Assembly: GCF_023204835.1 (NCBI RefSeq)
Contig: NZ_CP096270.1
Location: 2,170,001 to 2,234,000 of the forward strand
Source: Salinarchaeum laminariae
Lineage (GTDB): Archaea; Halobacteriota; Halobacteria; Halobacteriales; Salinarchaeaceae
Reading direction: 5' to 3'
Length of the DNA stretch: 64,000 nucleotides
Below the pieces are notes generated by a model that ran no database searches, had not been told where the DNA came from, and saw nothing but the letters and a program-made list of their open reading frames with translations. The position numbers were made by a program, and so were the translations under genes. This document shows, piece after piece, positions 9,399-15,780 of the stretch. Within the stretch, counting starts at the first letter, position 1, and each line of letters begins with the position of its first letter.

Positions 9399-10232
9399 AT
9401 GCACCACGTCGAAGCCGCCGGTGCCGAGATCCCCGCACTCGGTCTCGGGACCTGGCAGAACACTGGCTCTTCCTGTGCCGAGACTGTCGAGACCGCGCTC
9501 GACCTGGGCTATCGTCACGTCGACACCGCCCAGATGTACGGGAACGAGGCACAGGTCGGCGAGGGGATCGCGAGATCGAGCGTCGATCGCGAGGACGTCT
9601 TCCTGACGACGAAGCTCGATCGCGGGAACCTTCGCGCTGGGGACGCCCGCGCGTCGTTCGAGCGGAGCCTCGAGAAACTCGACACCGACTACGTTGATCT
9701 GCTTCTCATCCACTGGCCCCATCCCCGCGTGTCCTTCGAGGAGACGCTCGGCGTGATGGACGAGTTCCACGACGAGGGCACAGTCCGACACCTCGGTGTG
9801 AGCAACTTCACTCGGTCACAGCTTCAAGATGCGATGGAAATCGCAGATGCTCCGATCGTCACCGATCAGGTCCTCTACAACCCCTACAAGGATCAGTCGG
9901 ATCTCCTCGCGTTCTGCCAGCGGGAGGGCGTCGCGCTGACTGCCTACAGCCCGCTCGGTCGCGGCGAGGCGATCACTGACGAAACGCTCGCCGAGATTGG
10001 CGAAAAGTACGACAAGTCCGCCGCCCAGGTTGCGCTCCGGTGGGCCGTCCAGCAGGAACAGGTCGTCGCGATCCCGAAGGCCACCAGCAGGGGGCACCTC
10101 GAGGCCAATCTCGCCGTCTTCGAGTTCGAGCTGACCGATGCGGAGATGGATCGGATCGCGGGGCTCCGTGGCGGTATCAGGCGTCGGCTCTGGAATCGTC
10201 TGCCAGGGATGATGCGGAAACTACCGGTCTGA
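9399..10232 (+). CDS. Aldo-keto reductase
   Basis: A 277-residue (beta/alpha)8 NADPH-dependent oxidoreductase. The catalytic tetrad is visible: Asp and Tyr in YRHVDTAQMYGNE (about 40-50), Lys in FLTTKLDR (about 70) and His in LLLIHWPHP (about 103). The phosphate-binding end reads AIPKATSRGHLEANL (about 230), as expected for NADPH preference. The start at 9399 (MHHVEAAG) was chosen because the family begins just before the PALGLGTW strand; the longer frame runs back over the RPA promoter. Substrate cannot be told from sequence; 2,5-diketogluconate-reductase-like enzymes are the nearest group. It appears monocistronic and unrelated to the leucine genes downstream. Confidence 0.88.
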   Translation: MHHVEAAGAEIPALGLGTWQNTGSSCAETVETALDLGYRHVDTAQMYGNEAQVGEGIARSSVDREDVFLTTKLDRGNLRAGDARASFERSLEKLDTDYVDLLLIHWPHPRVSFEETLGVMDEFHDEGTVRHLGVSNFTRSQLQDAMEIADAPIVTDQVLYNPYKDQSDLLAFCQREGVALTAYSPLGRGEAITDETLAEIGEKYDKSAAQVALRWAVQQEQVVAIPKATSRGHLEANLAVFEFELTDAEMDRIAGLRGGIRRRLWNRLPGMMRKLPV

Positions 10233-10308
10233 CCGCGACCGTCGACAGGCCAAGCTTCGGGTTGCTGGCGACGGACCGTGTTCGGGCCGTCAGCGAGGGC
10301 CGTTTCAC

Positions 10309-10449
10309 CGCAAAATTCGTACGAACGACCACTCGGGATCCCGCCACTCGCAAAAATTGCACGAACGACGGCCCGACTCCCCGTCCTCGAATACGATTTC
10401 ACGGAACCACAGGGACAGACTTATGTAGGCAGATTCGTTCTGTAACGAA
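10309..10449 (+). promoter_or_regulatory. Three-site operator array in the leuA promoter
   Basis: A 21-base element at 10309-10329 (CGCAAAATTCGTACGAACG...) recurs at 10349-10369 with 18 of 21 bases identical, start-to-start spacing 40 bp. A third site, TTCGTT-CTGT-AACGAA, is a perfect 6+6 inverted repeat at 10434-10449. Centres fall near 10320, 10360 and 10441. The last lies between the TATA-like box and the ATG, where a bound protein would block transcription. The regulator is not identifiable here; an Lrp/AsnC or TrmB-like dimer would fit the symmetry. Confidence 0.5.
10420..10427 (+). promoter_or_regulatory. TATA-like element of leuA
   Basis: CTTATGTA centred about 30 bp before the ATG at 10454 predicts a leaderless transcript starting at that codon. 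It is a main reason to take 10454 as the true translation start of leuA despite the frameshift. Confidence 0.45.
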
Positions 10450-10453
10450 CACA

Positions 10454-11678
10454 ATGTCGCATTCCGACGACTCGTCTGGCACCAGCCAGGCGGATCGAGT
10501 TCTTCCAGGGCACACTGGATTCAACTGACGAGATCGAGACGGCACGTGTTTTCGACACGACGCTCAGAGACGGGGAACAGTCGCCTCGCACGTCCTTCTC
10601 ATACGAGGACAAGCGCGAGATAGCGGCGATCCTCGACGAGATGGGCACCCACGTCATCGAGGCGGGGTTCCCGGTGAACTCAGACGCTGAGTTCGAGGCA
10701 GTCAGAGATATCGCGAAGAGCACCAGCAACGACGTCTGTGGGCTCGCTCGCGTGGTCGATAAGGACATCGAGGCGGCACTGGACACCGGTGCGGAGATGG
10801 TCCACGTGTTCGTCTCGACCAGCGACGTCCAGATCGAGGACTCCATGCACGCGACGCGGGAGGAGGTCCGTCAGAACGCCGTCGACGCGGTGGAGCAGGT
10901 CACCGACGCGGGCGCGACCTGCATGTTCTCGCCGATGGACGCCACGCGGACCGACGAGACGTTCCTGCTCGACGTGATCGAGGCAGTCACAGAGGCCGGT
11001 ACCGACTGGATCAACATTCCCGACACCTGTGGGGTCGCCGCGCCGCGGCGGTTCTACGACCTGATCGACACGGTCACCGACCACACCGACGCGCGGATCG
11101 ACGTCCACACCCACGACGACTTCGGGATGGCCACGGCCAACGCCATCTCCGGAATCGAGGCCGGTGCCGATCAGGCGCAGGTCTCGGTCAACTCCATCGG
11201 CGAGCGTGCCGGTAACGCCGCCTACGAGGAGTACGTGATGTCCCTGGAGTCGCTGTTCCAGGTCGACACCGGGATCGACACGACCCGGATCACGGAGCTC
11301 TCTCGGATCGTCGAGGAGAAGTCAGACATGCCGGTCCCGGCGAACAAGCCGGTCGTCGGCGCGAACGCGTTCTCCCACGAGAGCGGCATCCACGCCGCCG
11401 GCGTGATCGAGAACTCCGACACGTTCGAGCCCGGCGTCATGACGCCCGAGATGGTCGGGGCACAGCGCGAACTGGTGCTGGGCAAGCACACCGGGACCCA
11501 CTCCGTCCGGGAGCGCCTGGATGGCGCGGGCTTTGCCCCCTCCGAGGAGGAGGTCCGGGCGGTCACCCGGCGGGTCAAGGATTACGGCGCCGAGGGCGAT
11601 CGAGTCACCGAGGCGGAGCTGGAGCGCTTCGCTCGCGAGGTCGGCGTCTCCCTCGAGGAAGAGGAGGTCCGGGCGTAG
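10454..11678 (+). CDS. leuA: 2-isopropylmalate synthase (or citramalate synthase), apparent N-terminal frameshift
   Basis: The enzyme condenses a 2-oxo acid with acetyl-CoA in the first step towards leucine. The DRE-TIM barrel motifs are present: FDTTLRDGEQSP, VIEAGFP, HTHDDFGMATANAI (metal-binding His pair) and NSIGERAGNAA, then HESGIHAAGV. The catalytic domain is open from about 10446 to 11678, but that frame has no ATG, GTG or TTG before 10641. Starting at 10641 would delete the catalytic DTTLRDGEQ segment. The ATG at 10454 follows a good promoter but runs in another frame, ending at 10528. Deleting one base near 10488-10493 joins both into about 409 residues. Either the base is an assembly error or the gene is damaged. 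The LeuA allosteric C-terminal domain is absent. CimA activity cannot be excluded. Confidence 0.8.
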
Positions 11679-11711
11679 GTGATTCCCATGTCCCGGACCG
11701 CTCACCACAGT

Positions 11712-11759
11712 TCCAGTAGCGTGCAGCGATCGTCGAGCAGCGACGTGACCGCTACTGGA
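11712..11759 (+). terminator. Inverted repeat after leuA
   Basis: A perfect 10+10 inverted repeat, TCCAGTAGCG (11712-11721) and CGCTACTGGA (11750-11759), with a 28-base loop lies 33 bp after the leuA stop. No oligo-T follows, so it may be an RNA-processing or stability element or a protein site rather than a terminator. Its position separates leuA from the leader/ilvB unit. Confidence 0.35.
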
Positions 11760-11815
11760 TCGTCCGCTCGGGGCTCGGTCTCGCGGCGAGCAGCCGCCGC
11801 GGGCGCTCCGAAAGG

Positions 11816-11826
11816 AACAAATACCC
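11816..11826 (+). promoter_or_regulatory. TATA-like element of the ilv leader transcript
   Basis: GAACAAATACC, preceded by a purine-rich BRE-like CGAAAG, lies with its centre about 30 bp before the ATG at 11851. It predicts an internal promoter between leuA and ilvB with a transcript starting at or next to that ATG. The box is weak (no TTTA core), so it needs transcription-start mapping. Confidence 0.4.
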
Positions 11827-11850
11827 CGAGATCACATCCAACTGCACGAC

Positions 11851-11928
11851 ATGACCCGACGCGCTCGCTCCCGGTCCGCAACCCCGGAGAGCAGCGACGT
11901 CGTCGCGATTATTGTAGGGGCTCCCTAG
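11851..11928 (+). CDS. Putative ilv leader peptide (25 aa)
   Basis: A 25-codon frame with ATG at 11851 and TAG at 11926-11928. Its second half reads DVVAIIVGAP: five branched-chain codons (GTC GTC, ATT ATT, GTA) among six. These are the products of the pathway encoded directly downstream by ilvB and ilvN. ATT and GTA are unusual codons in this GC-rich genome. The Val codon GTA and the next two codons overlap the 5' arm of a hairpin whose loop and 3' arm contain the stop codon. A TATA-like element 30 bp upstream predicts leaderless translation. The design matches amino-acid-sensing leader peptides of bacteria; its action in an archaeon is inference. Confidence 0.5.
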   Translation: MTRRARSRSATPESSDVVAIIVGAP

Positions 11929-11933
11929 CCCCT
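11916..11933 (+). promoter_or_regulatory. Attenuator-like hairpin at the end of the ilv leader peptide
   Basis: AGGGGCT (11916-11922) pairs perfectly with AGCCCCT (11927-11933) across a 4-base CCCT loop. The TAG stop of the leader peptide is at the loop/3' arm junction, so a ribosome finishing the peptide would melt the hairpin, while one stalled at the upstream Val/Ile codons would leave it free. A pyrimidine tract (about 11940-11955, CCCTTTCCTT) follows rather than a clean oligo-T. A second short palindrome, GCGAC-GTC-GTCGC, lies at 11894-11906. Confidence 0.45.
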
Positions 11934-12010
11934 GATACCACCCTTTCCTTCGTCTGTCGTCCAGTTTCCGACCAGCAGCGTCGTTCATCCATGAGCCCAC
12001 ACGCACGTCC

Positions 12011-12118
12011 ATGCCACACCCGACCACGTCGTCCGTATCGCCCGCCGACCACAGCGAGAGCGTCCCGCCCGCCCGCGCAACCATCCGTTATCACGACTCC
12101 GACCACACCGGGAGGTGA
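12011..12118 (+). CDS. Possible 35-aa uORF before ilvB
   Basis: ATG at 12011, stop TGA at 12116-12118, 35 codons with strong G/C third positions (about 29 of 34) and an acidic, Ser/Thr-rich product (start MPHPTTSSVSPADH). Its stop lies within the GGAGGTGA that should serve as ribosome-binding site for ilvB 7 bp later, so termination and ilvB initiation could be coupled. An alternative frame (11991-12128) overlaps the ilvB ATG but has poorer codon use. The region is markedly C-rich and G-poor, so an untranslated function is also possible. Confidence 0.25.
   Translation: MPHPTTSSVSPADHSESVPPARATIRYHDSDHTGR
12110..12118 (+). promoter_or_regulatory. Strong Shine-Dalgarno of ilvB
   Basis: GGGAGGTGA lies 7 bp before the ilvB ATG (12125). 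A good ribosome-binding site means ilvB is translated from a leadered message, in contrast to the many leaderless genes here, and fits a start inside a longer transcript that includes the leader region. Confidence 0.6.
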
Positions 12119-12124
12119 GTATCG

Positions 12125-14011
12125 ATGAGCGACCACGAACGGGACGAGGCGGACGCCACTAACGGCGAGCCCGTCCCCGACGGTGGTGAAACGGCAGCCG
12201 GCCAGGCCGGTGCGACCGCGCCCGGCTCCGCCGCAGAACGCGGCGCTGGTGACGAGGGATCCGATCCCGGCGTGGACGAACCGCCGACCGACGAATCCGA
12301 CCAGCGAGCAGCCGAGCGACCGGTCGGCACCGGTGCGCAGTCGGTCGTCCGCGCGCTCGAGAACGCGGACATCGAGTATCTCTTCGGCGTGCAGGGCGGG
12401 GCGATCATGCCCGTTTACGACGCCCTCTACGACTCCGAGCAGCTCACCCACGTCACGATGGCCCACGAGCAGGGCGCGTCCCACGCTGCGGACGCATTCG
12501 GCATCGTCTCGGGCGATCCAGGCGTCTGTCTGGCGACCTCCGGGCCCGGTGCGACGAACCTCGTGACGGGGATCGCCGACGCCGACATGGACTCGGACCC
12601 GATGATCGCCCTGACCGGCCAGGTCTCGACGGAGATGGTCGGCAACGACGCGTTCCAGGAGACCGACACGACGGGCGTCACCGATCCGATCACGAAGCAC
12701 AACAGCTTCGCAACCGATCCGGACACCGTCGGCGACGACGTCGGCGAGGCGCTCGCACTCGCAGACTCCGGTCGTCCCGGGCCGACGCTGGTCGACCTGC
12801 CGAAGGACGTCACGAACGGCGAGACCGACCGCGAACCCGGCGCGCCGCAGATGCCCGAGACCTACACGGTCCAGAAGTCCGCGGATCGGACGAACGTCGT
12901 CTCTGCTGCGCGTGCGATCGAGGAAGCAGATCAGCCTGCGATCCTCGCGGGCGGTGGGATTATCAAGGGCGACGCGAGTCAGGAGCTCTACGAGTTCGCG
13001 ACAGAGTACGAGCTCCCGGTCGTCACGACGATGCCTGCGCTGGGCGCCTTCCCCGAGGACCACGAACTCTCGATGTCGATGGCGGGCATGCACGGCACCG
13101 GCTTTGCCAACATGGCGATCACCCACACCGATCTGCTCATCGGCATCGGGACACGGTTCGACGACCGCCTGACTGGCGGCATCGAGACCTTCGCGCCCGA
13201 CGCGGAGGTCGTCCACGTCGACATCGACCCAGCCGAGATCTCCAAGAATATCCACGCGGACTACCCACTGATCGGCGACGCGGGAACGGTGATCGAGCAG
13301 CTCCACGACCAGATCGACCGCGCGCCGGACGCCGACGAGTGGCGCGACCAGTGCGTCGAGTGGAAGGAGGAGTACCCGATGGACTACCCGGTCCCGGAGG
13401 ATCGCCCGCTGCAGCCGGAGTTCGTCGTCGAGGCCCTCGACGAGGCGACCGGCGACGACGCGATCGTCACGACGGGCGTCGGGCAACACCAGATGTGGGC
13501 CTGCCAGTACTGGGAGTTCACCGAGCCCCGGACCTGGGTCTCCAGTCACGGACTGGGAACCATGGGCTACGGCATGCCAGCGGCGGTCGGCGCCCGACTG
13601 GCGGCCGACGACGATCAGGACGTCGTCTGTTTCGAGGGCGACGGCTCCTTCCTGATGACGTTACAGGAGCTCTCCGTCGCCGTCCGCGAGGAGCTGGACG
13701 TCACCGTCGCCGTGCTCAACAACGAGTACGTCGGCATGGTTCGCCAGTGGCAGGACGCCTTCTTCGAGGGCCGCCACGCGGCCTCGGAGTACGGCTGGTG
13801 TCCCGAGTTCGACAAGCTGGCGGAGGCATTCGGCGCCCGCGGCTGGGCGGTCGACGACTACGACGAAGTCGCCGACGCCGTCGAGGAAGCGGTCGACTAC
13901 GACGGTCCGAGCGTGATCGACTTCCGAATCGACCCACAGGCGAACGTCTACCCGATGGTCCCCAGCGGTGGCGACAACGGGAAGTTCGCGCTGTCGGAGG
14001 GGCAACTCTGA
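12125..14011 (+). CDS. ilvB: Acetolactate synthase, large (catalytic) subunit
   Basis: A 628-residue thiamine-diphosphate enzyme making acetolactate or acetohydroxybutyrate, the first common step to valine, leucine and isoleucine. Residues 1-75 are an acidic, low-complexity extension that looks disordered. Then come the Pyr domain with FGVQGGAIMPVYD and the catalytic Glu in AHEQGASHAADAFG (about residue 115), the FAD-type middle domain, and the PP domain with GDGSFLMTLQEL plus NNEYVGMVRQWQ (about 500-540) for Mg-ThDP. The core length fits the family. ilvN follows after 12 bp. Expression is probably set by the leader region upstream. Confidence 0.93.
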   Translation: MSDHERDEADATNGEPVPDGGETAAGQAGATAPGSAAERGAGDEGSDPGVDEPPTDESDQRAAERPVGTGAQSVVRALENADIEYLFGVQGGAIMPVYDALYDSEQLTHVTMAHEQGASHAADAFGIVSGDPGVCLATSGPGATNLVTGIADADMDSDPMIALTGQVSTEMVGNDAFQETDTTGVTDPITKHNSFATDPDTVGDDVGEALALADSGRPGPTLVDLPKDVTNGETDREPGAPQMPETYTVQKSADRTNVVSAARAIEEADQPAILAGGGIIKGDASQELYEFATEYELPVVTTMPALGAFPEDHELSMSMAGMHGTGFANMAITHTDLLIGIGTRFDDRLTGGIETFAPDAEVVHVDIDPAEISKNIHADYPLIGDAGTVIEQLHDQIDRAPDADEWRDQCVEWKEEYPMDYPVPEDRPLQPEFVVEALDEATGDDAIVTTGVGQHQMWACQYWEFTEPRTWVSSHGLGTMGYGMPAAVGARLAADDDQDVVCFEGDGSFLMTLQELSVAVREELDVTVAVLNNEYVGMVRQWQDAFFEGRHAASEYGWCPEFDKLAEAFGARGWAVDDYDEVADAVEEAVDYDGPSVIDFRIDPQANVYPMVPSGGDNGKFALSEGQL

Positions 14012-14023
14012 GGTGATCCAACG

Positions 14024-14683
14024 ATGAGCAACGACACATCCACGACGCCGGACGATTCGAAAGCCCTCGACGGACCACTCCCCGAGGAGCGCCCCGAGCC
14101 ACAGGGCAAGCGCAACGCCCAGGGAATCCGCATCGACCCCGAGGCAGAGGCCGAGCTCGATCCCGAGCGCGTCACCCTCTCCGCGCTGGTGCTTCACGAG
14201 CCCGGCGTTCTGGCGCAGGTCTCCTCGCTGTTCAGCCGGCGACAGTTCAACATCGAGAGCCTGACCGTCGGCCTGACGGAGAACCCCGACCGTGCGCGAA
14301 TCACACTGGTCATCGAGGAAACCCGCCCGGGGGTCGAGCAGGCGAAGAAACAGCTCGCAAAACTGGTCCCCGTCGCAGCGGTCCGCGAGCTCGAACGGGA
14401 CGCGACGCTCCGCGAACTCGCACTCATCAAGGTGAGCAGCGAGCATCCCGACAAGGTGCAGGCGCTGGCCGAGATGTACGGCGGCCAGGCCGTCGACGCG
14501 GGCGCGGAGACCATCACTGTCGAGATTACCGGCCAGCGACCCCAGATCGAGAACGCCGTCGAAGCGTTCGAGCGCTTTGGCGTTCGCGAGATCACTCGGA
14601 CCGGGACGGCAGCGCTGGCACGCGGAGCCACCGAAACGGCCGAGTCTGGCCACCCGCCGAACGCGCCGATGAACGACGACTGA
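14024..14683 (+). CDS. ilvN: Acetolactate synthase, small regulatory subunit
   Basis: A 219-residue regulatory subunit. After a roughly 48-residue acidic extension, an ACT domain begins at VTLSALVLHEPGVLAQVSSL (about 50) and continues with NIESLTVGLTE. The second half, with ELALIKVSSEHPDKVQALAEM, is the conserved C-terminal ALS domain. It binds valine and stimulates the large subunit, giving feedback inhibition. A GAGGTGA ribosome-binding site lies before the ATG. The extension before the ACT domain is longer than in most bacterial IlvN/IlvH proteins and resembles haloarchaeal acidic tails. Confidence 0.92.
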   Translation: MSNDTSTTPDDSKALDGPLPEERPEPQGKRNAQGIRIDPEAEAELDPERVTLSALVLHEPGVLAQVSSLFSRRQFNIESLTVGLTENPDRARITLVIEETRPGVEQAKKQLAKLVPVAAVRELERDATLRELALIKVSSEHPDKVQALAEMYGGQAVDAGAETITVEITGQRPQIENAVEAFERFGVREITRTGTAALARGATETAESGHPPNAPMNDD

Positions 14684-14736
14684 TAGCTTAGACGACCGAT
14701 TCACCGACAACACCAAACACGATTACAGATCCCACA

Positions 14737-15780
14737 ATGGCAGACGAATTCACCACGACGGTATACTACGACGACGACGCGAACAGCGCGCACATCGACG
14801 ACGAGACAGTGGCCGTACTCGGCTTCGGGAGCCAGGGGCACGCGCACGCACTCAACCTCCACGAATCCGGCGTCGACGTGGTCGTCGGCCTTCGCGAGGA
14901 CTCCAGCTCCCGCGAGGACGCAGAGTCCGCTGGCCTCACGGTGACGACACCCGCCGAGGCAGCCGCGCAGGCCGACGTCGTCTCCGTGCTGGTCCCCGAC
15001 ACGGTCCAGCCCGACGTCTACGAGAACGCCGTGGAGCCGAACCTCGACGCTGGCGACACGCTCCAGTTCGCCCACGGGTTCAACATCCACTACAACCAGA
15101 TCGAGCCGCCGGAGGACGTCGACGTGACGATGGTCGCCCCGAAGAGTCCGGGCCACCTCGTCCGCCGGAACTACGAGCGTGACCAGGGGACGCCCGCACT
15201 GCTCGCAGTCTACCAGGACGCGACCGGCGACGCCCACGACACCGGTCTCGCGTACGCCCAGGGCATCGGCTGTGCCCGCGCGGGCGTCATCGAGACGAGC
15301 TTCCAGGAGGAGGTCGAGTCCGACCTCTTCGGCGAGCAGGCCGTCCTCTGTGGCGGCGTCACGTCACTGGTCAAGCACGGATACGAGACGCTCGTCGACA
15401 ACGGCTACTCCCCGGAGATCGCCTACTTCGAGTGTCTGAACGAGCTGAAGCTCATCGTCGATCTGATGTACGAAGGTGGCCACGCGGAGATGTGGAACTC
15501 CGTCTCCGACACCGCCGAGTACGGCGGTCTCGTCCGCGGCGACGAGATCGTCGACGACCACGTCCGCGAGAACATGGAGGAGACGCTCGAGGCCGTCCAG
15601 GACGGCACGTTCGCCCGCGAGTGGATCGCGGAGAACCAGGCCGGCCGCCCGAGCTACACGCAGCTGCGCGACGCCGAGATGAACCACGACATCGAAGACG
15701 TCGGCGAGCGCCTCCGAGCCCTGTTCGCCTGGGCCGACGAGAACGACCAGGCAGCTGCAGAGGCGCCCGCGGACGACTAG
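14737..15780 (+). CDS. ilvC: Ketol-acid reductoisomerase (class I)
   Basis: A 347-residue NADPH-dependent enzyme converting acetolactate to dihydroxyisovalerate with two Mg ions. The Rossmann domain carries [17 protein letters not shown] (about 30-46). AHGFNIHY and [12 protein letters not shown] complete the cofactor domain. The C-terminal knotted domain contains [21 protein letters not shown], with the Mg-binding Asp and Glu, and later [19 protein letters not shown]. Its length is class I size. It sits 53 bp after ilvN in the same transcription unit. Confidence 0.93.

Follow-up and report, generated by a model that had tools for sequence, protein, structure and literature searches.

Comparative sequence analysis of a candidate amino-acid-sensing leader peptide upstream of ilvB in haloarchaea

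In the archaeon Salinarchaeum laminariae, ilvB is preceded by a short open frame that ends in isoleucine and valine codons next to a hairpin. The question raised by this locus is whether the frame is a leader peptide, through which the supply of valine and isoleucine controls the expression of ilvB. In bacteria such arrangements are well known, the leader-peptide attenuators of E. coli ilvGMEDA and ilvBN being examples. The haloarchaeal locus resembles the bacterial ilv attenuators in having a short frame just upstream of ilvB, Ile/Val codons near the end of that frame, an adjoining hairpin, and the cognate biosynthetic genes downstream. A leader-peptide attenuator has also been described for Corynebacterium ilvBNC (PMC10272879, PMC11857589). 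For archaea, a paper from 2021 stated that no transcription attenuation was known (PMC8448881), and a search of open-licence papers, mainly of their titles and abstracts, found no description of an archaeal leader-peptide attenuator, although a report outside that set is possible. Our answer, to which we would give a probability of roughly 0.75, is that the ilvB leader is an amino-acid-sensing leader peptide of haloarchaea, acting in an attenuation-like manner by the steps proposed below.

The features are collected in Table 1. The original prediction described a frame of 25 codons that carries Val/Ile codons towards its end, and a hairpin that covers the stop codon; all of these are present in the window (that is, the whole stretch of 64,000 nucleotides that was analysed). 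It had also called ATT and GTA rare, which is borne out: in the genes of the window's ilv operon, ATT makes up 7.8% of the Ile codons and GTA 1.4% of the Val codons. The name ilvB is one that we take from the operon context and from what is known of the family. The hairpin is as it had been described, with a 7-bp perfect core and the stop in the loop and 3' arm: the full stem has 8 bp, one of them a G-U pair, and the stop TAG (11926-11928) spans the loop and the 3' arm. The calculated stability is -13.2 kcal/mol (z -2.6), and none of 200 shuffled sequences was as good. A search of Rfam gave no match in the window at the gathering cut-offs, and only chance-level hits at 10000-12300. An Rfam-type motif named leuA-Halobacteria was set aside, there being no Rfam match and no paper found under that name. 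ARAGORN also called a tRNA-Ala (ggc) within ilvB (13555-13652, + strand), which is probably a false positive.

Table 1. Features of the ilvB leader region in the S. laminariae window, and the related element at valS in the same genome.
Feature	Position	Strand	Basis
Promoter element resembling BRE/TATA, some 30 bp upstream of the leader ATG	11810..11824	+	A/T and BRE peaks; promoter match
Leader peptide frame (uORF), 25 codons + TAG, MTRRARSRSATPESSDVVAIIVGAP	11851..11928	+	Predicted leaderless or near-leaderless start
Control codons ATT ATT GTA (Ile-Ile-Val)	11908..11916	+	Codon conservation
Hairpin across the stop codon	11915..11934 (5' arm 11915-11922, loop 11923-11926, 3' arm 11927-11934)	+	Folding and conservation
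G-poor tract that runs into a pyrimidine stretch (CCCTTTCCTTC); may serve in pausing/termination or protein binding	11934..11951	+	Base composition
Shine-Dalgarno GGAGGTGA of ilvB	12111..12118	+	Read from the sequence; present in 61/127 loci, hence not a conserved part
ilvB, acetolactate synthase large subunit, 628 aa, presumed regulated gene	12125..14011	+	Orthologues throughout the order
ilvN and ilvC, next genes in the ilvB operon	14024..15780 (open frames 14024-14683, 14737-15780)	+	Names from operon context and sequence
valS (valine-tRNA synthetase) leader element, MQFGCAVPAVVVGAF	Own genome C1:2702947-2702965 (L316/L354)		Frame end, GTA and hairpin

The upstream regions of 157 ilvB loci were compared, 138 from the Halobacteriales and 19 from families elsewhere in the phylum (families labelled f1-f17; seven loci come from named haloarchaeal records). 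The leader element was defined as a short frame with a branched-chain codon followed by GTA, GGG and a further G, having its stop 3-8 codons from the GTA and CCCC 5-9 nt after the GGGG. It is found in 127 of the 138 Halobacteriales loci, in 13 families, and in none of the 19 loci from phylum families outside the order; these counts are not of independent loci, which are related by descent and in some cases nearly identical. The 11 Halobacteriales loci without the element comprise two from reduced genomes (f2), four from deep-branching families (f10, f11), two from genus g29, and three second ilvB copies, each in a genome whose other copy has the element. In this comparative check across haloarchaea, which the original prediction had itself named as one that could refute it, the leader frame, its branched-chain codons and the hairpin all prove to be conserved across the order.

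The TATA-like element that had been noted 30 bp upstream of the frame is indeed there (acaaata, at about 11817-11823). Among 122 loci, the A/T fraction reaches a peak of 0.87-0.98 at positions -32 to -29 relative to the leader ATG, and the BRE appears as AA at -37/-36. When promoters were matched by a leave-one-out model that was blind to the frame, 118 of 119 loci had a first ATG that shares its reading frame with GTA, with p = 4e-55 on the assumption that the loci are independent, which they are not. Given this fixed spacing between promoter and ATG and the in-frame first ATG, the transcript is predicted to begin at the leader ATG itself or no more than a few bases away. No second TATA box was seen between the hairpin and ilvB, because this stretch is T-poor. 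Comparison of the loci confirms that the combination of frame, codon and hairpin is far above chance, since the frame end, the codon and the hairpin recur in 127 Halobacteriales loci and the first ATG is almost invariably in frame.

The most constrained part of the frame is its end. The Val codon is GTA in all 127 ilvB leaders, as against 0.9% of the Val codons in 28 ilvB coding sequences. The codon before it encodes Ile in 123 leaders (ATT in 91, ATC in 32), Val in three and Leu in one, and ATT thereby makes up 72% of the pre-GTA codons, compared with 8% of Ile codons. For the body of the peptide, the ratio of non-synonymous to synonymous changes in 39 related pairs is 0.67, which is weak coding constraint; strong constraint was sought in these pairs and not found, and codon-position bias was not significant. 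A drifting body with a fixed end fits a leader peptide in which strong selection bears on the control codons alone, and which would be translated; the weak constraint on the body fits a leader, yet does not itself prove translation.

The GGGG/CCCC core of the hairpin is present in 127 of 127 loci, with arms 5-9 nt apart, stems of 5-11 bp and a median stability of -12.4 kcal/mol. The base pair that the core encloses occurs more frequently than in permuted data, with p = 0.0003, a value that is inflated by relatedness. In nearly all of the 127 loci the GTA codon is where the hairpin begins, and the stop falls within it; in five the stop lies beyond the 3' arm and the hairpin is still kept, the sister loci L116 and L117 differing by TAG and TCG there. 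The hairpin therefore appears to be placed so that the position of the ribosome would decide whether it forms, and the geometry suggests that a stalled ribosome would occlude it. In 50 of the 127 loci the arms extend to an inverted repeat, GTAGGGG..CCCCTAC, as might be expected if a transcription factor bound a palindromic operator in the DNA downstream of the promoter. We regard this explanation as extremely improbable: the variable spacing between the arms, from 5 to 9 nt, argues against an operator, most loci have lost the outer TAC and keep GTA despite the loss of this hairpin partner, the stop codon lies almost always between the arms, and the reading frame ties the element to the ATG.

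The S. laminariae genome has a twin of the element upstream of valS. The pattern GTAGGGG-N3-10-CCCC has 12 matches there, which taken alone is about chance level; only two of the 12, at ilvB and at valS, come at the close of a short ATG frame whose stop is no more than four codons away, and it is only when combined with such a frame end that the pattern is specific. Leaders with GTA and the GGGG/CCCC element precede valS at loci L303-L316 and L381-L409. GTA is found in 26 of 26 distinct valS leaders, and the codon preceding it is Phe in 15, Val in seven, Arg in four, and never Ile. Between ilvB and valS the flanking codons thus follow the amino acid of the downstream gene, which is expected of a codon sensor and not of a fixed nucleic-acid motif. 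One second ilvB copy (L166) has an Ile-rich leader in which GGGG..CCCC is kept, the frame end is SIIAIIAIIGVS, and ATT replaces GTA. It is worth adding that valS of other families (L291-L301) has a different, very short frame (MSVASSVVRR, MRVVAVVRE) with GTA GTA CGT.

The conserved end could also be read as peptide. A nascent-peptide sensor like TnaC would have the end I-V-G-A/V arrest the ribosome at the stop on free valine or isoleucine, and the haloarchaeal leaders share with TnaC-type control their conserved C-terminal residues (Gly, then Ala or Val) and a stop codon at the regulatory site, here within the hairpin. We nevertheless consider such a sensor highly improbable. GTA is never swapped for a synonym, a fixity that a sensor at the level of the peptide does not need; ilvB and valS leaders do not have the same residue in front of Val; some frames extend 2-4 codons further; and Gly-Ala is also encoded by the GGGGC arm. 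Unlike TnaC, the haloarchaeal leaders have a synonymously invariant GTA and a valS version with Val only, which points to codon decoding and not to recognition of the peptide.

Leaders are found at further genes. Of 30 pheS loci, 20 have a Phe-rich frame (..PGFGFFFAA) ahead of the gene. The motif ..WRWR marks the leaders of the second trpS, which is of the bacterial type (L262 and L264-L268, with WQWRW in L267). No such leader was found at hisG, ileS or the main trpS, which served as negative controls. The control codons match the downstream gene: Ile and Val for ilvB, Val for valS, Phe for pheS and Trp for the second trpS. In E. coli, the pheST attenuator (PheM) places an aminoacyl-tRNA synthetase gene after a leader rich in the cognate amino acid. 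The haloarchaeal pheS, valS and second trpS are likewise preceded by cognate-amino-acid leaders, but unlike in pheST the peptides and the downstream RNA look unrelated in sequence. In Haloferax volcanii, uORFs of 15-31 aa have been listed in long 5'-UTRs, including those before pheS and tryptophan-tRNA ligase (PMC4983044, Table 2); that list, which covers 5'-UTRs of 150-250 nt, proposes no amino-acid-sensing role and does not include ilvB. We also note that the pheS leaders at L233-L260 end in ..GFGFFFAA and are followed by a conserved RNA (GGTGGACTC .. GAAACCG).

These other leaders bear on the suggestion that ilvB and valS form a valine regulon under an RNA-binding protein that recognises the GGGG..CCCC hairpin, the short frame being incidental. 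Arms that are near-invariant and common to two valine genes, with a conserved pyrimidine tract downstream, are what such a site might look like, but the Phe and Trp leaders exist in the same organisms without the GGGG/CCCC hairpin. An incidental frame also fits poorly with the first ATG being in frame in all but one of the matched loci, with a pre-GTA codon that is branched-chain in 127 of 127 ilvB leaders and often not in valS, and with the second ilvB copy that has kept the hairpin and has ATT for GTA. We take a protein-binding site of this kind to be highly improbable, and retain the codon-sensing leader peptide.

The RNA beyond the hairpin is also distinctive. Nucleotides 5-20 after the CCCC contain 3.5% G, compared with 22.7% further down, and U has a peak at a median of 30 nt (IQR 29-32) after GTA; the G-poor tract is present in valS leaders as well. 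C dominates the pyrimidine tract, and T runs beyond the hairpin usually reach a maximum length of 2. We agree with the original prediction that no clean oligo-U follows the hairpin, an oligo-U terminator being not clearly present. In the comparison of leaders one conserved hairpin was found, and within that comparison no U-run terminator after it and no antiterminator was identified. The earlier proposal that FttA (aCPSF1) terminates transcription on the C-rich RNA finds no support, as FttA is reported to prefer U-rich RNA, with U at -23 and U-rich sequence at -30 to -36 of the RNA end (PMC11616081), though past the hairpin there is indeed a short pyrimidine tract that includes a U peak.

The mechanism that we propose starts from the parts that the comparison of loci shows: the short frame with its Ile-Val(GTA) codons, the hairpin and the tract after it, the spacing of the promoter, and the valS element. 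From these we infer that the ribosome stalls, that its stalling acts on the hairpin, in which direction ilvB is controlled, and that the output is termination of transcription. Transcription would begin at the leader ATG or only a few bases from it, and a ribosome close behind the RNA polymerase would read the leader. Under a shortage of charged tRNA-Ile or tRNA-Val, the ribosome would stall at ATY-GTA; with GTA in its A site, it would cover the GGGG arm and block the hairpin, and it would remain beside the RNA polymerase, which would run on into ilvB, so that ilvB is on. When both amino acids are plentiful, the ribosome would reach the stop in the hairpin and depart, and the hairpin would form. 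With the ribosome gone, the G-poor pyrimidine tract and a long untranslated C/A-rich leader would be exposed, and this would lower the expression of ilvB, most likely by premature termination. A review suggests that, on Spt4/5, aCPSF1/FttA and coupling to the ribosome may be mutually exclusive (PMC8116511), and this would suit the stalled-ribosome reading.

The two halves of the original claim, a leader peptide reading the supply of valine and isoleucine to control ilvB, have fared differently. Comparison strongly supports the Val/Ile sensor, through its conservation across the order and the contrast with valS; for the output step on ilvB, which we propose, no antiterminator or classical terminator was found. 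The same sensor could have another output, in which the ribosome alters the translation of ilvB (access to the start, or reinitiation) or the stability of the mRNA, and not transcription. The ilvB of the window has a strong Shine-Dalgarno sequence about 190 nt downstream, which together with the lack of a clear terminator would suit this alternative. We think it possible but rather unlikely: a Shine-Dalgarno sequence is present in only 61 of the 127 loci (which rules out its sequestration as a general output), the distance from leader to ilvB varies widely, and no conserved element is more than about 35 nt away from the control codon.

With transcription as the preferred output, the ilvB leader appears to work like a leader-peptide attenuator, although, of the features that define one, alternative structures were not found and termination is the presumed step. 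It differs from the bacterial ilv attenuators in several respects. Its start would be leaderless or nearly so and set by a TATA promoter; its control codons number only 1-3, among them a rare GTA that never varies, and its stop lies inside the hairpin; and it has no recognised antiterminator or U-run terminator. Nor has any relationship in sequence been noticed between the two.

The gene just upstream of ilvB is leuA (start at about 10450-10640), and in most of the loci examined (L031-L037, L410-L439) it has no usable in-frame start codon. An ATG after a TATA box opens a short overlapping frame (..RVLPGH..). In the 24 loci where the script caught this overlapping frame, the putative shift point is a conserved GTT CTT, and CTT is a rare Leu codon. 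A +1 shift at GTT CTT would yield LeuA, and a leucine-controlled frameshift is therefore possible. Slippage has been raised for leuA2 of H. volcanii by Pfeiffer and Dyall-Smith (PMC8305020); in the present loci the arrangement is seen across families.

It is fairly probable, in our view, that haloarchaea have a general ribosome-based form of leader-peptide sensing, directed at Ile and Val for ilvB, at Val for valS, at Phe for pheS and at Trp for the second trpS, and joined by leuA through a +1 frameshift at a rare Leu codon. The invariant GTA makes the question of which tRNA signals starvation directly testable by means of synonymous mutants. If it is true, such general leader-peptide sensing would be the first attenuation-type control in Archaea, and one that is built on leaderless translation.
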